NCBI GenBank assembly: GCA_016928495.1
Contig: JAFGKQ010000204.1
Location: 1 to 9,552, forward strand
DNA: 9,552 nucleotides
Origin: Candidatus Fermentibacterales bacterium
GTDB lineage: Bacteria > Fermentibacterota > Fermentibacteria > Fermentibacterales > JAFGKQ01
Direction: 5' to 3'
Under the pieces are notes generated by a model. That model searched no databases. It was not told the DNA's origin and saw only the letters and a list, made by a program, of their open reading frames with translations. Positions 1-9,552 of this stretch are shown piece by piece (the stretch's first letter is position 1; every line of letters begins with the position of its first letter). The position numbers and the translations under genes are program-made.

Positions 1-365
1 CCGGCTCGGGCTGGAACGGCAGGATCTACGGGCTCGAGGGCAGGTTCACCGGAGTCGCGGCCGGGAGCGTCGTGCTGAGGGACAGAGCGGGATCCGTAGA
101 TACCGTCCTGGCCTCGGCCGACGGCTCCCTGATAGCCGACATCAATGGAGACAACGGCGTGGACGTCGTCGAGGCCTCTCCCGGTCTCGTCAGGGTGATC
201 TCCAACGTGGTCGGGTCCAGTGGGATGACGCTCACTGTCCGGGCCGTCACCGGCGGTCGGGAAGTGATGGTGGAGGACATCTACACGATAGGGTCGATTC
301 CCGGTCGCTGTGCCGGATCCGCCGGCGCAGTTCCTCCGGCCTCCGCGGGATTGGACGGGATATGA
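1..365 (+). CDS. C-terminal fragment of an unassigned extracellular-type protein (5' truncated)
   Basis: The frame is open from base 3 to the TGA at 363-365, giving 120 visible residues; the true start lies left of the window. The GTG at 72 is internal and not a credible start, because coding continues upstream of it. The fragment is rich in Gly, Val, Ser and Thr with alternating beta-strand-like stretches and no membrane helix, suggesting an exported beta-rich domain. At 138-173 it encodes DINGDNGVDVVE, which matches the spacing of an EF-hand or dockerin-type calcium loop. The ATG of the next gene overlaps its stop (ATGA), so the two are probably co-translated. By position it could be the GspH/FimT-like member of the pilin set, but the diagnostic N-terminus is missing and I do not recognise the family. 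Confidence 0.7.
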   Translation, partial: GSGWNGRIYGLEGRFTGVAAGSVVLRDRAGSVDTVLASADGSLIADINGDNGVDVVEASPGLVRVISNVVGSSGMTLTVRAVTGGREVMVEDIYTIGSIPGRCAGSAGAVPPASAGLDGI

Positions 366-727
366 CAGGCAGCAGCGCCCGGAGAGGATTCACGCTGGTC
401 GAGTCCGTGGTCGCTGCGGTGGTCATCCTCATCGTGCTGGGAGCGCTTGCCCAGGCGGCCAGGACCTTCTTCGAGGGCCAGCGGAAGCTGGGGGAGAGAC
501 AGGCCTGCCTTACGGTCGCCTGGACGGAGATTTCGAGGATAGAGGGTCAGGGCTATATTCCGGAGGATGGCTCCAGGACGAGACGTGAGACCCTGATGGG
601 CCGGAGCTACATGCTCGTGACCGAGACCAGGACCAGCGAGGACGGCTCATACACCGATGTCAGCGCGAGGGCCGTCTCGGAGCTGGCCGAGTCTCAGGTG
701 GAGCTCCAGAGGAGGTTCTACAGATGA
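362..727 (+). CDS. Minor pilin / pseudopilin, GspI- or PilV-like
   Basis: A 121-residue protein with a textbook prepilin signal: leader MTGSSARRG, predicted cleavage after Gly9, then FTLVE with Glu14 at mature position +5, and a hydrophobic helix to about residue 33. Prepilin peptidase would cut and N-methylate it; the mature protein is anchored in the inner membrane until assembly into a filament. The short globular part (RQACLTVAWTEISRIEG, then a GYIPEDG turn and beta-strands) resembles the small I-type pilins that pair with J and K in the tip complex. The start ATG overlaps the upstream stop. No strong Shine-Dalgarno precedes it, so translational coupling is likely. Assignment to pilins is firm; assignment to I/V rather than another minor pilin class is inference from size, sequence feel and gene order. 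Confidence 0.9.
   Translation: MTGSSARRGFTLVESVVAAVVILIVLGALAQAARTFFEGQRKLGERQACLTVAWTEISRIEGQGYIPEDGSRTRRETLMGRSYMLVTETRTSEDGSYTDVSARAVSELAESQVELQRRFYR
710..715 (+). promoter_or_regulatory. Shine-Dalgarno AGGAGG ahead of the ATG at 724
   Basis: A perfect AGGAGG lies 8 bases before the ATG at 724, inside the end of the upstream pilin gene (its last residues QRRFYR). It is the main reason to take the short ORF at 724-861 seriously. AGG is a favoured Arg codon here, so an Arg-Arg pair could create it by chance. Confidence 0.4.
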
Positions 728-861
728 TCCGCATGCCGGTGCGCGAGCCGGCCTGCCAGTCTTTCATTCGCTCTGTGGAGAAGAGTTGTCGTCACACCAT
801 ATCTGCCGGGGCGGCCGAAGGGTCTCCCGGCAGTGGAGTGCTCCGAGGAGGGAGGAGATAA
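724..861 (+). CDS. Possible 45-residue leader or linking ORF
   Basis: ATG at 724 overlaps the previous gene's TGA (ATGA), has a perfect Shine-Dalgarno 8 bases upstream, and the frame ends in a TAA at 859-861 that overlaps the next gene's ATG (TAATG). The predicted product (MIRMPVREP..., 45 residues, two Cys, ending VLRGGRR) has no recognisable domain, no signal peptide and no pilin motif. Third-position GC is lower than in the neighbouring genes (several TCT, AGT, CGT, TGT codons), which argues against a conserved protein. It also contains an 8-bp inverted repeat at 803-833. Reading it through would couple translation of the two I-like pilins. It may instead be noncoding spacer with a chance ORF. 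Confidence 0.3.
   Translation: MIRMPVREPACQSFIRSVEKSCRHTISAGAAEGSPGSGVLRGGRR
803..833 (+). other. Inverted repeat / RNA hairpin upstream of the second I-like pilin
   Basis: CTGCCGGG (803-810) and CCCGGCAG (826-833) form a perfect 8-bp stem around a 15-base loop. No T-run follows, so it is not a classic intrinsic terminator. It ends 27 bases before the pilin ATG and 12 bases before its Shine-Dalgarno. That position would suit an mRNA processing or stability element, or an attenuator affected by ribosomes reading the short ORF. A weaker 5-bp pair, GCCGG (735-739) with CCGGC (748-752), lies near the start of the same gap. Confidence 0.45.
846..855 (+). promoter_or_regulatory. Purine-rich Shine-Dalgarno for the pilin at 861
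   Basis: AGGAGGGAGG ends 5 bases before the ATG at 861. This fixes the start there rather than at upstream in-frame GTG or ATG codons, and it gives a normal-length prepilin leader. Confidence 0.7.
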
Positions 862-1238
862 TGGTCGGACGTCCGGTCAGAGGAACCGGAGGGTTCACCA
901 TGATCGAGGTCCTGCTGGCCAGCGTGCTGCTGGGCATACTGATCGTAGGGCTCGCGATGTTCTTTGCTTCGATGCTCCGCCAGTCGGACGTCGTCGACGA
1001 CAGGACCCGGGCCCTCGAGCTTGCCAGAGGCGGGCTGGAGGAGATGAGAACGGTCGACTTCGACACCGTTCCCGCTCCCAGCGCGACCTACGGTCCGGAA
1101 ACGATAGAGAAGTTCGAGAGATGGTTCTACGTCGACACGCCCATAGATACACTCGGCAAGGCGCGTCTCGTGAGGTGCTGCGTGCGATTCGAGTCGGCCA
1201 ACGGGAACGACTCGGTCAGCCTCAGCACCATTTTCTAG
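861..1238 (+). CDS. Minor pilin / pseudopilin, GspI- or PilV-like (second copy)
   Basis: A 125-residue protein from ATG 861 to TAG 1236-1238. Leader MVGRPVRGTGG is cut after Gly11, followed by FTMIE with Glu16 at mature +5 and a hydrophobic helix ending near residue 35 (VLLGILIVGLAMFF). After the helix comes RALELARGGLEEMRTVDFD, the pattern typical of I/V-type minor pilins, where this helix continues as the amphipathic stalk. The rest is a short beta-rich head (FERWFYVDTP, ARLVRCCVRFES). A vicinal Cys pair (RCCVRF) is present. The frame is open further upstream, but that extension has no coding character and would bury the leader. It follows another I-like gene and precedes a J-like gene, so it probably belongs to the tip-initiation complex. 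Confidence 0.9.
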   Translation: MVGRPVRGTGGFTMIEVLLASVLLGILIVGLAMFFASMLRQSDVVDDRTRALELARGGLEEMRTVDFDTVPAPSATYGPETIEKFERWFYVDTPIDTLGKARLVRCCVRFESANGNDSVSLSTIF

Positions 1239-1252
1239 GGCAGGTGGTGGAT

Positions 1253-4200
1253 ATGGGATCGAAGAGCAGGAGGGAATCGGGCCGGAGAGAGGGCATGACC
1301 CTCGTCGAGCTCATCGTCGTGATCATGATTCTCGGGGTGGTGCTGGCAGGCATCTACCTGATCTTCCTCCGGACAACCGAGCACTACCATTTCGGCAGGC
1401 GCCAGAGCGAGCTCGACATCTCGGGACGGCACACTCTCGAGAGGGTGACCGATGAGCTCATCTGGGCCGGCTACATGCCCTACGGCGGCTGGGACGACGA
1501 CGAATGGCACCCGATAACCATCGCAAGCCAGGACGAGGTGCAGTTCTACGCCGACTTCCGGCCCTTCGGCAGCCTTCAGCCCGAGGATACCGTCTCCATC
1601 TCGCTGAACACCCTCGACAAGCGTGTCCAGTTCCAGGACGCGGCCGGTAGCACCTGGTTCGAGGGTTTCAACATCGACCTTCTGGCCTTCAACTATCTCG
1701 ACCAGAGCGGCAGGGAGATCCAGGGCGACCCGCTGGTGTTCCCGGACAGCACCGACCTGGTCCGCCACATACAGGTGGACCTCACCCTGTCCGACATCTA
1801 CGCCGGCAACTTCTACCAGACCATGATGCACACCACGGTATCGCCCAGGAACCTGGGGATCAACCACAACATCAACCCGGCCTTCTGGCCGCCCCCCCCT
1901 CCCGGCGGCATCATCATCTTCAACGTGGCCAGCCCCGACACGCAGCCCTCGTTCGACGAGTCCGAGCAGATCGAGTACCTGCTGCTGCGGGGGTTCACTG
2001 TCCAGATAATCGCCGACGACGAGGTGCCGACCTTCGACTTCAGCACGGCGGACCTGCTCGTCATACACAACGAGGGCGGAGTGCACACGCACCAGTCGGT
2101 GCTGGACTCGCTCCGTTTGCCGATAGTCACCATGAACCCCTACATCGGGATCGAGTTCGGCATAGGCTGGGACTACCACCTGCTCCCGGTGCCTCCCGCG
2201 ACCGTCTCGGGCGGGGAGGATATCAACGATGACGGCATCTGGAGGCTCAACCCCGATCACGAGGTGATGATCTGGAGCCTTCCCGACCCGACCGCTGACC
2301 CATGGGTGCTCCTCTACGACACCACGGGGGCCCAGACCTTCATCCTCAACACCGACAGCGTCTACGGGGCCGGCTGGTTTCCGGACTCGCTGCTTGCCGT
2401 GAAGGGCCCCAATGCCGACGAGTTCGACGCCACGGTGGCAGTGGTGGCCGAGGATGACTCGCTCATGAGAAGGGTCTTCTTCGGATGCCACGACGCCACG
2501 GCCTACAACCACGACGGCTGGGACCTCTTCTACAACGTCATAGTCTGGGGCATGATGGGTCCGCAGCAGCCTCCGGAGCCGGGCGACCCCATCACGGAGC
2601 TCGAGGACTTCGAGGGAACGGGCCCCGGTCCCACCGTCGTCACTCTGTGGGACGACCCGATCATACCGAACTTCGGGGCCGATACCACGATCATCTACAT
2701 GGAGGACTTCGAGGATCCCCTGGGGCTGGAGTGGAACCTGGTCAGCCTGAGCTCCGCCGGAAGAATCCAGGTGGGCTCGGGGATAATGTCCATGGACAGG
2801 ACCGGTCCGGGCGCGGCGACGCGCAACCTCGCCGCCCTGACCGTGGACCTCTCGGCCTACAGCGAGCTGACCGACGAGCTTCTGCTGATCTATCACTCGA
2901 GGACACACGAGGGGGCCGCGGACGCCAACGACGGCGTCTTCTTCAGGGATCTCTCCAACTACCAGGTGGACACCCTCTATCTGGAGGACTTCACGAGCCC
3001 TCCTGGCGACAACCCGGAGTTCTGGGGCGACCTGTTCGGGCGCTGGAGAAGGCACAACACCTGGGCGGGGGACGGCTACTTCGTCACCCTGGACACCAGG
3101 ACCTCCGGCAACTGGGCGGTCAACAGGATGATGGTCGAGCTGAATACCTCCGGGTTCGTCAACGACCAGGTGTTCCTCGACTTCGACTTCGAGGACCACA
3201 ACGAGCAGAGCACGTCCGGTGACGCCGGCGACTTCGTGGGCTACAACGACCACGGCATCATCAACGGACCGGTGGGCCTGTTCGAGGACCTCGACCCCGG
3301 CGCCTACGCGGACGGCGTATGGCACCACCGGACCGTGAACGTGCACGACTATCTCAACCCCTCGTCGTTGCCCGATCCCCTCTACATCGTCTTCGGTCAC
3401 GCGGGGGACGAGATGGCCATCGGCCCGGCGGCCAACGGGGGGCTCTCCTTCGACAACATCATGGTCACTGGGGCCGGTTACGCCGACACGACCTACGACC
3501 GCTTCGCCATCCCGGGCGCAGCCGGAGGCTGGGTCTACAACGTGGTCGACCTCGACGACGCGGCCATCCTCCACGGGCAGACCTTCGACGCGGACTTCGA
3601 GATGGTCTTCAGCCAGTACGGGGGCAATCCGATACCCACCGAGGGCCGCGACTGGGACAACGTGAAGATCGGCATAGCCGGCGCCGGGGCAGCCGTGGAC
3701 GGATGGACGCACGGCATGATGCCGGGCTACGGGACAGACGACTGGGACCCCCAGCTCGTCTCGCCGCCGCTGGACTACGCCTGGACCTCCTGGAAGAACG
3801 TGGCCAGCAGCTACAGCCCCGACTGCTACTGCTGGCTGCAGAGCCCCGAGATCACCATACCGGGGTGGATCACCTCGCCGACACTCACCTTCGAGCACGA
3901 CTACTCGTTCGAGACGGGTGACGACGGCGGCTACATGCTGATCAGCGTCAACGGAGGGGCATGGACGCCCCTCACGGCGGCCAGCGGACTGGCCTACACC
4001 GGCGTCGCGACTGCCGACAACCCCATCCCCGACGGCACCGAGATCTTCACCGATGCCTCGGGCGGGTGGGTCACGGAGACCGTAGACCTGACGCCCTACA
4101 TCGGCAACGACGTGCGGTTCCGGTTCATACTGGGCTCTGACGCCGCCGACGAGGATGGCGGCTGGGCCCTCGACAACTTCCACGCCGAGGGGATCGGCAC

Positions 4201-5233
4201 GGGCTACATAATCCACACCATCGACTTCTACGCCGTGGACTCCGCGCTCGATCCGTGGAACCACTTCGACGTCTACCTCGGGACCACGGCCAGCAGCGAC
4301 TTCACGGTCTCCGGTGAGCTGAACAAGGCCGCGATGCAGCTCTCGGCGGACGACGCTACGCTGGACGTGTCCGCGACGGGTTGGAAGAGCATCCCTCTGG
4401 ACGTGCCCTTCGCGCTTCCGGCCGGGACCAACCTGACGCTGAAGATCGAGCTCAGCAACGCCGCGACCGGCATGAACAACACCTGGTGGCAGTGCCTCGA
4501 CACCGGGGCGATCTCCCAGTGCCGCCACGCCGGGAGCGATCTCGGCGATCCGGCCAGCCTGAGCCTGGAGTACTACAAGCCCAACGTGATACTCCACAGC
4601 TACGCCGGCGTTCTGTCCGTGGCGACGGGCACATCGCAGCGCGAGCTCTACCCGCTCTGCGACAACTACCTGTTCAACGACTTCGAGGCGATCTACACGG
4701 CCACCGAGCTGGGAACCACGGGTGCCGACTGGTACCACGAGGGGACCAACGACGACTGGGAGATCGGGTGGCCGCTGTTCGTTCCGGCGCCCGACCCGGT
4801 GCCTCCGCCATCCTGCGGGGCGCACGTCGCCGGCAACGATCTCACCGACGATGGATTCTACGTAGACGACGCCTGGTCCTGGATGAGGTCGCCGGCCTAC
4901 CCGATGGCCGCAGCTCTCGCCTACGACACAGTGTTCGTCAGGTTCGACCGCTGCCTGAGGCTGGAGGGTCTGGACAACGGCTTCCTGCAGCTTGCCTTCA
5001 CCACGGACCCCGGCCTTCCCACCACCTCCCTCGACTGGCAGGTCATAAGGTCCTACGTGGGTGAGAACCACTCGATCTACGAGACGGAGGAGGTGGACAT
5101 GACGAGCGACTTCAACGACAACGCCGACTCGACGTTCTACATGCTCCGCTTCGTCCTGGACTCCGGGCCGTGGTTCTCGAGGGGCGGCTGGAACCTCGAC
5201 AACATCCAGGTCTTCGGCCGCACGGCTCCATAG
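1253..5233 (+). CDS. Giant modular minor pilin, GspJ/PilW-like N-terminus with a large multidomain head
   Basis: 1326 residues, several times the usual length of GspJ or PilW (roughly 200-350). The ATG at 1253 follows AGGTGG with 5 bases spacing. Leader ends RREG14, then MTLVE with Glu19 at +5 and a helix to about residue 37. Residues 38-210 are a PilW-like head (EWHP at 84, PEDT at 110, SPRNLG near 200). A Pro-rich linker (FWPPPPPGG) leads to a Rossmann-like alpha/beta domain (about 218-436). Then come beta-sandwich modules: about 446-575 (EDFE at 451 and 484, DGVFF at 560), 576-740 (closing SFDNIMV), 741-980 (closing WALDNF), 984-1110 (VYLGTT) and 1137-1326 (closing WNLDNI). All eight Cys lie outside the pilin domain (411, 858, 860, 1081, 1090, 1136, 1188, 1234), so disulfides are possible. 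Likely a filament-tip adhesin or sensor; ligand unknown. Pilin identity is firm; module families are inferred by eye. Confidence 0.88.
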   Translation: MGSKSRRESGRREGMTLVELIVVIMILGVVLAGIYLIFLRTTEHYHFGRRQSELDISGRHTLERVTDELIWAGYMPYGGWDDDEWHPITIASQDEVQFYADFRPFGSLQPEDTVSISLNTLDKRVQFQDAAGSTWFEGFNIDLLAFNYLDQSGREIQGDPLVFPDSTDLVRHIQVDLTLSDIYAGNFYQTMMHTTVSPRNLGINHNINPAFWPPPPPGGIIIFNVASPDTQPSFDESEQIEYLLLRGFTVQIIADDEVPTFDFSTADLLVIHNEGGVHTHQSVLDSLRLPIVTMNPYIGIEFGIGWDYHLLPVPPATVSGGEDINDDGIWRLNPDHEVMIWSLPDPTADPWVLLYDTTGAQTFILNTDSVYGAGWFPDSLLAVKGPNADEFDATVAVVAEDDSLMRRVFFGCHDATAYNHDGWDLFYNVIVWGMMGPQQPPEPGDPITELEDFEGTGPGPTVVTLWDDPIIPNFGADTTIIYMEDFEDPLGLEWNLVSLSSAGRIQVGSGIMSMDRTGPGAATRNLAALTVDLSAYSELTDELLLIYHSRTHEGAADANDGVFFRDLSNYQVDTLYLEDFTSPPGDNPEFWGDLFGRWRRHNTWAGDGYFVTLDTRTSGNWAVNRMMVELNTSGFVNDQVFLDFDFEDHNEQSTSGDAGDFVGYNDHGIINGPVGLFEDLDPGAYADGVWHHRTVNVHDYLNPSSLPDPLYIVFGHAGDEMAIGPAANGGLSFDNIMVTGAGYADTTYDRFAIPGAAGGWVYNVVDLDDAAILHGQTFDADFEMVFSQYGGNPIPTEGRDWDNVKIGIAGAGAAVDGWTHGMMPGYGTDDWDPQLVSPPLDYAWTSWKNVASSYSPDCYCWLQSPEITIPGWITSPTLTFEHDYSFETGDDGGYMLISVNGGAWTPLTAASGLAYTGVATADNPIPDGTEIFTDASGGWVTETVDLTPYIGNDVRFRFILGSDAADEDGGWALDNFHAEGIGTGYIIHTIDFYAVDSALDPWNHFDVYLGTTASSDFTVSGELNKAAMQLSADDATLDVSATGWKSIPLDVPFALPAGTNLTLKIELSNAATGMNNTWWQCLDTGAISQCRHAGSDLGDPASLSLEYYKPNVILHSYAGVLSVATGTSQRELYPLCDNYLFNDFEAIYTATELGTTGADWYHEGTNDDWEIGWPLFVPAPDPVPPPSCGAHVAGNDLTDDGFYVDDAWSWMRSPAYPMAAALAYDTVFVRFDRCLRLEGLDNGFLQLAFTTDPGLPTTSLDWQVIRSYVGENHSIYETEEVDMTSDFNDNADSTFYMLRFVLDSGPWFSRGGWNLDNIQVFGRTAP
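1892..1899 (+). repeat. Run of eight C in the Pro-rich linker
   Basis: Eight consecutive C (then T and CCC) encode part of the proline linker between the pilin domain and the head of the giant protein. Losing one C would bring in a TAA at 2007-2009; gaining one would bring in a TGA at 2230-2232. Either change would leave a pilin of near-normal size without its head. The run is short for a proven phase-variation tract. Confidence 0.5.
1904..2560 (+). other. Rossmann-like (glutamine-amidotransferase/ThuA-like) domain within the giant pilin
   Basis: Residues about 218-436 show an alternating strand/helix pattern: IIIFNVASPD, then IEYLLLRGFTVQIIADD, then ADLLVIHN, then LPIVTMNPYIG, and a closing FFGCHDATAYNHDGWDLF with an amphipathic helix. 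This recalls the noncatalytic amidotransferase-like domains found in secreted multidomain proteins. I see no nucleophile-elbow GxCxG motif, so a catalytic role is not supported. A DINDDG motif inside could bind metal. The paralogue at 8387 has no equivalent domain. Family assignment is by fold pattern only. Confidence 0.5.
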
Positions 5234-5243
5234 AGGGGGTGAT
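5234..5243 (+). promoter_or_regulatory. Shine-Dalgarno AGGGGGTGAT for the K-like gene at 5248
   Basis: It starts one base after the giant gene's TAG and differs at one base from the extended AGGAGGTGAT complement of 16S rRNA. It favours ATG 5248 over the in-frame GTG at 5239, which lies inside it. Confidence 0.65.
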
Positions 5244-5247
5244 AGAG

Positions 5248-6756
5248 ATGCTCGCAATCAGAATACCGGGAACAGGCAGAGGCGGAAGGAGGGGGTCGGC
5301 GCTCGCGCTGGTCGTCCTCTTCGCCTTCGGCATGTCGATCCTCGCAGCCGCCATCTACACCCTCTTCAGGATCAACATGACGAGCTTCATCTATGACAGA
5401 GACAAGATGCAGGCCAGGTACACCTCGGAAGCGGGGGCCAACCTGGCAATGCACATGATCCTCGGGGGCGCCTCCGTCCCCGGGGACACCATGCCCGAGT
5501 ACTTCATGGGCTCCCAGCTCGTCTGGCTCGACCTCCCCGGGAACGACCTCGGGGAGGTCAAGGTCGTGGTGGACCCCAGCGACGCCAACCCCGAGATAAC
5601 CGAGGGCAACTCCTACGAGATAAGGTCTCTCGGGAAGAACATCGGGGAGGACAACGACAACTACTACCACGGCACCAGGGCCTACATGATGCCGGAGAAC
5701 TTCGCGCGCTTCGCCGCCTTCCTGAGCACTCCGAACCTGGGCGGGTTCTACGGCGACGGGTACCGCTTCGACGGGCCCTTCTTCGCCAACGGGCCGATCT
5801 GCATCTGGAGCCAGACGGGCTTCTGGAGCCCCGACGAGCCCATGTTCTACTCGCTCGGCCTGGCGTCGCCGCACTACTACTACTCGACCGGAGGCGCCAG
5901 CAACCCGACCAGCGTTCCGCACGTCGGAGGGCTCTGGATCGAGCCCTACGACAGGATGCTGCTCGGGCCGCCCTACTTCGAGATGAACGCCGACCCGATC
6001 GAGTTCGGGCCGGACGAGGTGGACTGGCAGACGGCCAGGAACGCCGCGATGAGCAACGGCATCTACTTCGCGGGCGGAGCGGCCCCGAGCGGGACCAGGA
6101 TGATCGTCCGTGGCGACACCCTGATAGTGAAGACGTCCCAGGCGGCTGCCGAGCAGCGCTTCTGCATCAGCGACTACGGCAACCCGGTGGTCTGGGTGGA
6201 CAACAACAACACGGACAACCTCTACCTCAAGACCTACCCCTCGATGGTGGACACGAACTTCCTGACCGTTCCCCTGACCATCGGCATGAGGGGCAATCTC
6301 TACATGGCCGGCAGCTTCCGCTACGCCAACGAGGACTGCCTGGACCCGAGCAACAAGATCCTCGCCGGGTTCATCACGGTCTACGGCGACATCCTGATGG
6401 CCCACGACCCCGAGACCACCGGGGGAGCTGACTGGGCCGGGATCTGGGAGGTCGAGACCTTCGTCAACTGGCAGTTCAACGGCGTCCTGATGGCCCTCAG
6501 CGGCGAGATCAGGGCGGAGAACTACTGGTACCCCCAGCCTTCCGTGGACCTGACCATCCTGGGCGGCTACATAGTGGTGGAGGAGGGCATAACGACGACT
6601 ACGATGCCCAGCGGCTTCGACTGGGCCATACACTACGACACCAGGCTCATGTCCATGCACCCGCCCTTCTTCCCGTCCACGGGCAAGTGGGACCTCATCG
6701 CGTGGTGGGAGGACCCGAGCATGAACGAGCACTGGCTGGACCTCAACCTCTACTAG
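5248..6756 (+). CDS. GspK/PilX-like minor pilin with a large beta-rich head (first paralogue)
   Basis: 502 residues. Leader ends GGRRG16, then a hydrophobic helix SALALVVLFAFG... to about residue 40. Mature +5 is Leu rather than Glu, a hallmark of GspK and PilX, the subunits thought to sit at the very tip. The segment after the helix (SEAGANLAMHMI, Glu61) matches the PilX-type 'AEAG' pattern. The head contains DGPFFANGP at 175, GGADW at 392, WEVET at 400 and MHPPFFP at 470, all shared with the next gene. The 'dGPvh-NG' pattern recalls a domain of unknown function (DUF4900-like) in pilus-associated proteins of other phyla; that link is from memory and unverified. It lies 14 bases after the giant pilin gene, so the pair is probably co-expressed. 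Confidence 0.85.
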   Translation: MLAIRIPGTGRGGRRGSALALVVLFAFGMSILAAAIYTLFRINMTSFIYDRDKMQARYTSEAGANLAMHMILGGASVPGDTMPEYFMGSQLVWLDLPGNDLGEVKVVVDPSDANPEITEGNSYEIRSLGKNIGEDNDNYYHGTRAYMMPENFARFAAFLSTPNLGGFYGDGYRFDGPFFANGPICIWSQTGFWSPDEPMFYSLGLASPHYYYSTGGASNPTSVPHVGGLWIEPYDRMLLGPPYFEMNADPIEFGPDEVDWQTARNAAMSNGIYFAGGAAPSGTRMIVRGDTLIVKTSQAAAEQRFCISDYGNPVVWVDNNNTDNLYLKTYPSMVDTNFLTVPLTIGMRGNLYMAGSFRYANEDCLDPSNKILAGFITVYGDILMAHDPETTGGADWAGIWEVETFVNWQFNGVLMALSGEIRAENYWYPQPSVDLTILGGYIVVEEGITTTTMPSGFDWAIHYDTRLMSMHPPFFPSTGKWDLIAWWEDPSMNEHWLDLNLY

Positions 6757-6769: not shown

Positions 6770-8212
6770 TTGACCATCCCGCGGGGGCGCGGAAGGGGCA
6801 GGAGCGGCCCGGGCAGCGGAGCGGCAGCCAGGAGAGGCGCTGTGCTCGGCATAGTCGTCGTCCTGATGTTCGCTCTGGCGGTGCTCGCCACCGCCGCGTT
6901 CGTGCTCTTCCGGAGCAACCTCAGATCGGGGGAGTGGCGGGAGGACAGGGTGAGGGCCATGATGGCAGCCGAGTCGGGCGCGGCTCTTGCCATGCACTAC
7001 CTCGGCACTCTGGATGTCCCGCCCTCCGATCCCGAGCCCTTCTCTCTGGACGGGGACAGCCTCCAGTGGATCGAGATCCCGGGGTCGGGCGGCGACAAGG
7101 TCTGGGTCGTCGTGGATCCGTTCGACCAGGGCATGGGACCCGTGAACAACGGGGGAGTGGAGATCAGGTCGAGGGGGATGTCGGGGGAGTCCGTTCGCGA
7201 CGTCGTCGTGAGGGCATGCCCGGACTACCCCTCGCGCTACGCGAGGCTGGTCGACCGGAGCCTGTTGTCCCGTCCCTTCGTGGATGGCGACGTGGTGGAC
7301 GGTCCCGTCCACTGCAACGGGCCCATAGGCTTCGCCAGCCTCTCGTCCGACTCGGCCGGCGATCCCTACCTCTCGATGGTGGGGACGACGGTGGACGGCG
7401 GCTTCCATTTCTCCGGCCACGGCTACTCCACGAGCCCCCATCCGGAGGGCAGCAACGTCTGGGTGAGGCCCTTCGCCCACCACCTCCAGGGCAAGCCCTA
7501 CTGGGACGCCACTGCCGACAGCATTGATTTCGACGGCCTGAGAAGCTACTTCGAGGACCTTTCCGGGGTCGCGGCCTCCCAGGGCTCCTACCTCTCGGGT
7601 GTCCGGCGCCTCCTGATCGATGGGAGCAGGATCATCTGCTCCGCGGGGCCCGAGTCCGAGCCCGAGACGCTCAGCCTTGCCGGAAGGGACGTGGTGTTCG
7701 TGCGGGGAGGCCCGGTCTACGTCAAGACGATAGACAGGCTGACCACGCCGCTGACCCTCGTGGTGAGCGGCGATCTGATCATCGCCGGCCAGCTCGACGC
7801 GCCGGGGGCCGGTCTGGGCACCCCTCTGGGCCTGGTGTCCCTCGGCGACGTGCAGGTTGCCCGGGATCCCGACCTGTGGGGAGGCACCGACTGGGCCTTC
7901 CCGTGGGAGATAGAGACGGAGGGGCACATCCTGGTCCATGCAACGGTAGCCGCGCTGGGCGGCTCGCTCAGGGCGGAGTCTCCGGGGGAGCCGACGCCTC
8001 AGCGAGTGCTCAGCATTCACGGCGGTCTGATGGAGCGGGAGGCCGGAAGGCTGGGTACGTCGAGCGGGGGCTTCGGACTGGCTCTGGGTTACGATTCCGG
8101 CCTTCAGTCGGTTCACCCTCCCCGCTTCCCGTCGCTGGAGACCTGGGTGATGACCTCGTGGATGATGGACCCTGACTATGGAGATCGCTCGATAGATGAC
8201 AACATGTTCTAG
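6770..8212 (+). CDS. GspK/PilX-like minor pilin with a large beta-rich head (second paralogue, TTG start)
   Basis: 480 residues from TTG 6770 to TAG 8210-8212. The leader is long and rich in Arg and Gly (MTIPRGRGRG..., ending AARRG23), then the helix AVLGIVVVLMFALAV... to about residue 47; mature +5 is Ile, not Glu. The next in-frame alternative start, GTG 6842, would delete the cleavage site. AESGAALAMHYL (Glu68) follows the helix. The head aligns with the previous gene along its length: DGPVHCNGP at 177, VYVKT, a PLTLVVSGDLIIAG strand pair, GGTDW at 371, WEIET at 379, VHPPRFP at 448, and a closing Trp-rich segment ending in an Asp-Pro. Both copies probably arose by tandem duplication and may form a heteromeric tip. 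Function beyond pilin assembly is unknown. Confidence 0.85.
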   Translation: MTIPRGRGRGRSGPGSGAAARRGAVLGIVVVLMFALAVLATAAFVLFRSNLRSGEWREDRVRAMMAAESGAALAMHYLGTLDVPPSDPEPFSLDGDSLQWIEIPGSGGDKVWVVVDPFDQGMGPVNNGGVEIRSRGMSGESVRDVVVRACPDYPSRYARLVDRSLLSRPFVDGDVVDGPVHCNGPIGFASLSSDSAGDPYLSMVGTTVDGGFHFSGHGYSTSPHPEGSNVWVRPFAHHLQGKPYWDATADSIDFDGLRSYFEDLSGVAASQGSYLSGVRRLLIDGSRIICSAGPESEPETLSLAGRDVVFVRGGPVYVKTIDRLTTPLTLVVSGDLIIAGQLDAPGAGLGTPLGLVSLGDVQVARDPDLWGGTDWAFPWEIETEGHILVHATVAALGGSLRAESPGEPTPQRVLSIHGGLMEREAGRLGTSSGGFGLALGYDSGLQSVHPPRFPSLETWVMTSWMMDPDYGDRSIDDNMF

Positions 8213-8386: not shown

Positions 8387-9552
8387 ATGCACGCTAGGTT
8401 GCACGCATGGCTTTGGTGCGATGACCGCCGGCGAGCGGGAGGTTTCACTCTTCCCGAGCTGGTGATCGTGATCGCCGTGGTCGGGGTACTGCTCGCGGCG
8501 ATCTATCTTGTGTTCCACAGCGGGCGCGAGGCCGGAAGGCAGATCTCCGACTCCCATGATGCCGAGGTGGCCGCAAGGCTGGCGGTAGAGGAGCTGGAGA
8601 CCTACCTGAAGCACGCCGGATACACCGGTGTGGCCCCGGCAGGCGAGTGGCATCCCCTGAGGTCCGCCGGGCGTGACAGGATCGTGTTCGTCGCCAACCT
8701 AGAGAACCCGGGGTCGTTCGGACCCGAGGACACCCTGACGGTCGAGTGGGACTCCGGCGGCAGGCTGGTCGTCAGCAACGCCTCGGGCGAGACCCTCTAC
8801 CAGGGCGGCGCCTGCACGGAGGTCAGTCTCTCCTATCTGGACGGCACGGGAACCGAGCTGTCCGGAGGGGAGCTCTCGACCCAGGAGGGTCTGGACCGCG
8901 TAAGGCAGATAGCCTACAGGGTCTCGACCGGCGACGGCGGCTTCGTGATGCCCGGCCTGTCGACACCCAGGAACCTGGCCTTCGCGGGCGAGAGCCCGGA
9001 CTTCATGGCCTCGTTCCTCCCCGAGCGCTTCTCGGGCGGCAACGACATCAGCTTCTTCGAGGAGACATGGGAGAGCCCGGGCTACTACTCCTTCTACGAC
9101 ACCATCGAGGCCGAGCCGGGATGGGTCCCGATCATCATCGAGGACTTCGAGACGGCCGCCTCCTGGACCAACAACTGGGTGCTCTACAGCTCCGAGACCA
9201 ACGGCAGGATACGCAGGTACGCCGATGCCGGCGCGCACGGCGGTTCCTACGACCTGGCCATGGACGCCAGCCCCGCCGGGCTGGTGAACCTGAACGGAGC
9301 CATCTGGAGGGTGGACCTCACGGGCTACGACGAGTTCACGGACAGCCTGAGGCTCCACTGGTTCTGGATGGAGAACAACGACGAGGCCGACTCGGAGGAC
9401 GGGGTCTTCTTCCCCGACTTCCTGGGAGGCTCCGAGACCCTGATCAACTCCGAGGACTTCTCCGGCTTCCGCTTCGATCTCAGGAGCGACTGGGAGTACT
9501 GGAACACCACCTACGGCAACGTAAGGGTACTGGACAACGCCTGGTCCCAGCC
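8387..9552 (+). CDS. Second giant modular minor pilin, GspJ/PilW-like (3' truncated by window end)
   Basis: Open from ATG 8387 to the window edge, 388 codons with no stop. The leader is 19 residues (…RRRAGG19) and the mature N-terminus is FTLPE with Glu24 at +5, then a helix to about residue 41. The pilin head is homologous to the protein at 1253-5233: EWHP at 87 and PEDT at 113 keep exactly the same 26-residue spacing, and TPRNL matches SPRNL. A linker leads directly to a beta-sandwich module with EDFE at 252, DGVFFPDF at 338 and the next EDF at 356. The 18-residue DGVFF-to-EDF spacing equals that of the first giant. The Rossmann-like domain is missing here. It follows a 174-base gap, so it may be partly independently expressed. 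More modules probably follow beyond the window. Confidence 0.88.
   Translation, partial: MHARLHAWLWCDDRRRAGGFTLPELVIVIAVVGVLLAAIYLVFHSGREAGRQISDSHDAEVAARLAVEELETYLKHAGYTGVAPAGEWHPLRSAGRDRIVFVANLENPGSFGPEDTLTVEWDSGGRLVVSNASGETLYQGGACTEVSLSYLDGTGTELSGGELSTQEGLDRVRQIAYRVSTGDGGFVMPGLSTPRNLAFAGESPDFMASFLPERFSGGNDISFFEETWESPGYYSFYDTIEAEPGWVPIIIEDFETAASWTNNWVLYSSETNGRIRRYADAGAHGGSYDLAMDASPAGLVNLNGAIWRVDLTGYDEFTDSLRLHWFWMENNDEADSEDGVFFPDFLGGSETLINSEDFSGFRFDLRSDWEYWNTTYGNVRVLDNAWSQ

Follow-up and report, generated by a model that had tools for sequence, protein, structure and literature searches.

A giant W/J-type minor pilin with its own modular head in Candidatus Fermentibacteria, a candidate tip adhesin of type IV pili

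A Candidatus Fermentibacterales genome (assembly GCA_016928495.1) encodes, at positions 1253..5233 of the forward strand of contig JAFGKQ010000204.1, a minor pilin of 1326 amino acids (aa), here called the giant. We read it, with a probability of about 0.6, as a modular W/J-type tip pilin of the Ca. Fermentibacteria type IV pilus (T4P), whose own adhesin head replaces PilY1; adhesion, tip position and sensing are what we infer for this protein. The window analysed here is the whole 9552-base contig (C298), a short contig in a fragmented 2.3-Mb metagenome-assembled genome (MAG) that is 81% complete and that was queried through targeted stretches and family searches. In a scan of named genomes, its relatives fell within Ca. 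Fermentibacteria (Fermentibacter daniensis, Sabulitectum and Aegiribacteria). An earlier note, made from the letters of the window, had described a single frame in which a class III prepilin signal with Glu at +5 and a PilW/GspJ-like pilin part are followed by about 1100 further residues of secreted type, and had proposed a pilin-adhesin fusion with its own head.

The frame starts at an ATG and is uninterrupted, with no internal stop. The giant was matched in 39 of the 42 genomes of the order by genome search, in many as a single open frame, and many independent Ca. Fermentibacteria genomes hold full-length versions with 34–45% identity to it; sequence comparison revealed full-length co-linear relatives of 1294–1320 aa in independent assemblies. 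In an alignment of 18 orthologues, all sequences span the leader through the final residues (GGWN-DN). Overall pN/pS values were 0.15–0.29 in four close pairs and at most 0.41 for each module, these ratios being rough because some pairs have nearly saturated synonymous sites. GC content by codon position stays at approximately 0.6/0.4/0.9 throughout the frame and shows no break at the pilin/head junctions. The earlier note had looked to a frameshift or an assembly join as its possible undoing, and the origin of the window as a short contig from a fragmented MAG would suit such an artefact, in which a PilW gene is fused to the gene of a secreted protein; however, the co-linear full-length orthologues from many independent MAGs, the steady GC and the purifying selection refute it, leaving it a negligible probability, and the same evidence excludes a chance open reading frame. 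The giant is thus a real single protein under purifying selection, neither chance nor join. An antisense open frame of 1340 codons lies opposite the giant (window 1235-5257, -); third-position GC of about 0.9 in the sense frame makes a composition shadow its most likely explanation.

Residues 1–14 (1253..1294, +) form a class III leader peptide, MGSKSRRESGRREG, which ends in Gly and is followed, after a predicted cleavage site before M15, by the mature start M(+1)TLVE(+5)LIVVIMILGVVLAGIYLIF, in which M15 is +1 and E19 is +5. Two prepilin models were matched over their cut-offs, PF07963 with 25.4 bits (cut-off 21.2) and TIGR02532 with 22.4 (cut-off 16.3), and the protein combines the leader ending in Gly/Ala, the hydrophobic tract and the Glu +5 of type IV pilins. 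AlphaFold models, generated in two pieces from 13 and 14 sequences, are of moderate to low confidence (mean pLDDT 67 and 62). In them, the pilin domain (residues 15–205; 1295..1867, +) is predicted to comprise a helix (17–72) and a GspJ-type sheet, in keeping with the type IV pilin fold of a long N-terminal helix packed onto an antiparallel sheet. Foldseek matched this domain to the XcpGHIJK pseudopilus model and to the EpsI:EpsJ complex, and VIA-align comparison with Thermus TTHA1219 gave a Z score of 11.9 and 3.5 Å over 142 residues; TTHA1219 is closest to XcpW/GspJ according to its authors (PMC5131608). The predicted J-type fold and the neighbouring I- and K-like pilin genes together point to a protein of PilW/GspJ type. 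The giant is J-like by its modelled fold, yet it lies outside the family model TIGR01711 (GspJ of type II secretion systems, T2SS), which gave no row at E<=1. The prepilin signal, the PilW/GspJ-like part and the large extracellular-type head fused to it, as described in the earlier note, were therefore all borne out.

The head is composed of several modules. Residues 215–440 (1895..2572, +) are modelled as a ThuA/GATase1-like alpha/beta domain (Z 14.1 to 4pxy; IFT52 was also matched). It contains no Cys that is conserved across 18 sequences, and for this reason an amidotransferase reading was rejected. The following ~880 residues (446–1326) appear in the model as a string of beta-sandwiches whose best Foldseek matches are reelin repeats. 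A first beta-sandwich region (446–741; 2588..3475, +), modelled with low confidence, resembles the K1 cleaved-adhesin domain of gingipain Kgp (Z 11.5) and is missing in short forms of the protein. It is followed by a MAM-type module (810–982; 3680..4198, +), by a further predicted beta-sandwich (984–1130; 4202..4642, +) that is kept in forms of ~790 aa but mostly gone in those of ~850 aa, and by a C-terminal MAM-type module (1153–1325; 4709..5227, +) that is present in all forms and matches the MAM domain of meprin beta (Z 13.9, 2.8 Å over 142 residues) and InhA2 (Z 11.6). Searches of the head with Pfam models, as the earlier note had suggested, and with NCBIfam models detected PF20773 in the 810–982 module with E 6e-4, below the cut-off, and choice_anch_J at 817–976. 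PF20773, the InhA-like MAM family, was matched in 8 of the 18 orthologues (best E 1.9e-8), the giant itself remaining below the cut-off. Compared with solved structures by sequence, the giant had no match at E<=1, its profile retrieved just pilin N-termini and weak NKG2-D rows, and no match was found among viral contigs. The PF07963 match, the InhA-like MAM of the orthologues and the MAM folds with Z of 11–14 place the giant with the modular pilins of Raynaud et al. 2021.

The 810–982 module matches the MAM domain of RPTPmu (Z 11.4) and, equally well, a chondroitinase carbohydrate-binding domain (8jiy, Z 12.0). This second match, together with the known occurrence of relatives in digesters and sediments, could mean that the head works as a carbohydrate-binding array for holding food polysaccharides and not cells or surfaces. 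Jelly-roll folds are, however, common to many non-carbohydrate modules, and we consider a substrate-binding tip quite unlikely.

Comparison across the order indicates that the giant exists in length classes of ~1300, 1140, 850 and 790 aa, in which both ends (pilin and C-terminal MAM) are constant and the middle modules are gained or lost. Forms of ~1300 aa occur in family f3 and in genera g7 and g8, and forms of ~790–880 aa in genus g2. The giant of G005 is without residues 577–742, one g2 group is without ~457–853, and in another g2 group the head is reduced to the 986–1130 sandwich and the C-terminal MAM. Within the long forms, no module is better conserved than the pilin (mean pairwise identity 0.52) and the C-terminal MAM (0.50). 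This pattern suggests a constant binding end carried on a stalk that differs in length between forms.

PilB/PilT-type ATPases, one secretin, one strong PilM match and ComEC were present in each of the 15 genomes tested. T4P machinery (PilB/PilT-type ATPases, PilM and one secretin) also lies elsewhere in the source genome; the earlier note had proposed a search for pilY1, pilQ, pilB and pilC. Where contigs allow it, the distance between PilM and the secretin is ~5 kb (e.g. G013:C52), as in pilMNOPQ. The single secretin per genome and its proximity to PilM make a type IV pilus the most likely identity of the filament. These data bear on the possibility that the V/I/J/K set forms a T2SS-like pseudopilus that drives secretion, with the head selecting secreted cargo or belonging to it: its I-J-K-K make-up is reminiscent of GspIJK, and GspJ is what the fold comparisons retrieved, but a separate T2SS secretin was not found in the genomes tested, the one secretin lies near PilM, and most of these genomes carry PilT-type ATPases. 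We thus regard a pseudopilus as very unlikely. Six N_methyl matches were detected in the source genome, four of them within the window. No W/J-type prepilin other than the giant was detected in G005, a genome that is 95% complete. G001 (98% complete) differs from the other 14 genomes tested in having a single strong PilB-type ATPase but no match of PilT type; its pilus may lack the usual mode of retraction.

PilY1 (PF05567) had no match in the giant or anywhere in the source genome, and was not found in 41 of the 42 genomes of the order, the sole exception being G003. Outside the order, the same search gave a match in 9 of 57 genomes (7 over the cut-off), indicating that it can detect PilY1 in distant lineages. 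The earlier remark that no PilY1-like gene is visible was weak from 9.5 kb alone, yet it holds for the source genome and for nearly all of the order. As for a separate PilY1 gene assembled with this set, which would have spoken against the fusion, none was found in the source genome, but the relative G003 carries PilY1 beside its giant. The G003 protein (2483 aa; L052:2305-9756) is encoded with its own normal-size pilins, of which the J-like one has 197 aa, and its locus gives the impression of a distinct minor-pilin set that may have been acquired.

The minor-pilin genes of the window follow the order K0-V-I-giant-K1-K2, and then comes a second W-type pilin. All 18 relative loci examined keep the order K0 (~480 aa)-I-like-giant-K1-K2, and in 13 of them a V-like prepilin can be recognised ahead of I. 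Directly upstream of the operon, obg and dprA were found in 11/11 loci outside g2 (L035, L037-L044, L053, L054), a linkage that is a possible tie to DNA uptake; the 7 g2 loci have aroE and a radical-SAM gene there instead. The main rival explanation starts here: the operon would encode the minor pilins of a competence pilus, similar to Thermus ComZ/PilA2, and these would capture DNA for ComEC and DprA. The presence of ComEC in 15/15 genomes, the resemblance of the pilin domain to TTHA1219 from a Thermus minor-pilin cluster and the precedent of ComZ, a large DNA-binding tip pilin (PMC6561018), are consistent with it. However, ComEC is also present in most control genomes, the giant is kept in the 7 g2 loci although dprA is unlinked, and K1 and K2 match no solved structure by sequence, not even that of ComZ. 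In addition, the head is strongly acidic, with a net charge of -100 in the giant and an acidic character in all 18 orthologues, unlike a DNA binder. A tip devoted to DNA uptake is thus unlikely, and one pilus could serve both adhesion and DNA uptake.

Minor pilins of the H/I/J/K types prime the filament and remain at its tip, where they are usually capped by PilY1 (PMC10191384, PMC7541494). The simplest account of the giant would be that its head, which is about the size of PilY1, is a tip adhesin built in cis. Prepilin peptidase would cleave the protein after Gly14, and the pilin domain would join the I- and K-like proteins in a priming/tip complex through its N-terminal helix; being too bulky for the shaft, the head would sit at the filament tip. 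There, the ThuA-like domain and the middle beta-sandwiches would form the variable-length stalk that presents the constant C-terminal MAM-type module, and the ligand of this module may be a protein or a glycan, carried by cells, particles or polymers. Upon ligand binding, pilus retraction would anchor or move the cell. The head would hence take over, as part of the same polypeptide as a filament subunit, the role that elsewhere falls to a protein of its own, PilY1. Adhesive modules on pilins have experimental precedent, which supports this account (PMC8179133, PMC9934059).

Several points weigh against an adhesin head that replaces PilY1. The models of head and pilin are only of moderate-to-low confidence (pLDDT 67 and 62), and PF05567 may overlook a very divergent PilY1. 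G003 has the giant (as an 877-aa frame) in addition to PilY1, so that there is no mutual exclusion of the two. Furthermore, MAM-type sandwiches occur too in secreted enzymes without adhesive roles. Lastly, a purely adhesive reading leaves the ThuA/GATase1-like domain (215–440) unaccounted for; the architecture of the fusion proposed in the earlier note thus stands, while adhesion alone does not explain this part of it.

PilY1 is usually regarded as both the tip adhesin and the priming partner of type IVa pili in outer-membrane bacteria. We tentatively raise the idea, which is somewhat doubtful, that an order with a secretin-type T4P dropped PilY1, its task having moved to a W/J-type minor pilin that is obligatory in every pilus tip and bears a constant binding module on an evolving stalk. 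Very long PilW-like prepilins also exist elsewhere, with 1657 aa in G076 (L077:3589-8562), where the gene adjoins PilM and an 814-aa PilX-like gene, and with 1017 aa in G098 (L078:6421-9474); giant pilin forms are therefore not confined to Fermentibacteria. Neither genome has a PilY1 match, and no Pfam family was matched by the two long heads. If the proposed shift took place, these proteins would mean that it happened more than once. Outside the order, PilY1 was present in 0/3 genomes with a PilW-like frame of at least 550 aa versus 3/9 with a shorter one, numbers too few to count. An order nearly without recognisable PilY1, in which a pilin head of ~600–1100 residues belongs to the same gene set, amounts to a natural experiment on what a tip complex needs. 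It further suggests that current counts of large minor pilins are too low, since their modules carry no signature in the databases, and makes the giant a concrete candidate for the attachment of uncultured Fermentibacteria in digesters and sediments. A search of the literature on pili in Fermentibacter and Fermentibacteria returned no paper on these pili by title.

Modular type IV pilins are widespread in bacteria (PMC8179133, PMC9934059). PilB (vWA) and PilC (Ig and lectin) of Streptococcus sanguinis share with the giant modules that are grafted C-terminal to the pilin domain and a proposed tip position, but have ~450–500 aa versus 1326, carry other modules and belong to an organism without a secretin; their adhesion is experimental (PMC8179133, PMC9934059), and that of the giant is deduced. 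Pseudomonas PilW, XcpW, EpsJ and Thermus TTHA1219 (PMC5131608) have in common with it the J-type fold and a gene located between I- and K-like genes, although PilW/GspJ minor (pseudo)pilins are headless proteins of ~200–350 aa and the giant also falls outside the NCBIfam GspJ model. PilY1/PilC (PMC7541494, PMC10191384), likewise large, modular and expected at the tip with minor pilins, would share its job; however, they are not pilins and are defined by the PF05567 beta-propeller, to which the giant has no match. Thermus ComZ (PMC6561018) is also a tip-type minor pilin of very large size whose gene accompanies those of small I/J-like pilins, but is of GspK type and has an inserted DNA-binding beta-solenoid, whereas the giant, of J type, has an acidic head and C-terminal modules that are MAM-like. 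CofB of the CFA/III pilus (PMC8179133), another large minor pilin with extra beta domains that is predicted to be tip exposed, differs in belonging to a type IVb pilus, in being much smaller and trimeric, and in having neither MAM-like nor GATase1-like domains. Modular pilins were thus already known; what is new is the size of the giant, its J/W-type pilin domain, its order-wide occurrence with a secretin, and the missing PilY1.

Among the other genes of the window, K0, a large third K/PilX-like pilin, is represented by its C-terminal end (3..365, +), cut by the contig start and weakly similar to a ~480-aa protein upstream of V/I in relatives. A V-like small prepilin of 121 aa follows (362..727, +; PF07963 25.5 bits, weak gspI match), and then an I-like (PilV/GspI) small prepilin of 125 aa (861..1238, +; PF07963 21.7 bits; TIGR02523 PilV E 2e-5, below cut-off), which is preceded by a strong Shine-Dalgarno GGAGG and was detected in 18/18 relative loci. 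Downstream of the giant lie the large K/PilX-like pilins K1 (502 aa; 5248..6756, +) and K2 (480 aa, TTG start, weak GspK model match; 6770..8212, +). Both are without Glu at +5, as is GspK; some of their relatives weakly match PilX_N and DUF4900, and their profile had no match at E<=1 among solved structures, including ComZ. At one locus (L054; G041:C3), the giant, K2, K0 and dprA are each broken over several frames, which resembles sequence errors or decay.

The second W/J-type long-headed prepilin of the window (8387..9552, +; PF07963 28.6 bits), which the earlier note does not mention, comprises at least 388 aa before the contig end truncates it. It is 33% identical to residues 11–202 of the giant and 36% identical to residues 480–604, and is found, besides the window, in f3 loci, G011, G013 and G019. 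Its length is a normal 199–206 aa in G004, G006 and G008 and 989–993 aa in G002, G011 and G013, whose long heads align to giant residues 481–980. The head contains the same type of modules as the giant, without the GATase1-like domain (window 8387-9552; L035:16237-19212; L040:16134-19103; L042:5109-8090). Being short in some genomes and bearing a giant-like head in others, this protein indicates that head modules have been gained or lost in two different pilins. The second long-headed pilin is followed by a large lipoprotein (lipobox e.g. LLSC) with Kre9/KNH Ig-like modules (L042:2545-5280, -; L035/L036; L040:19104-20000; L068; L083), and the two stay paired even where the pair lies elsewhere in the genome (G041).

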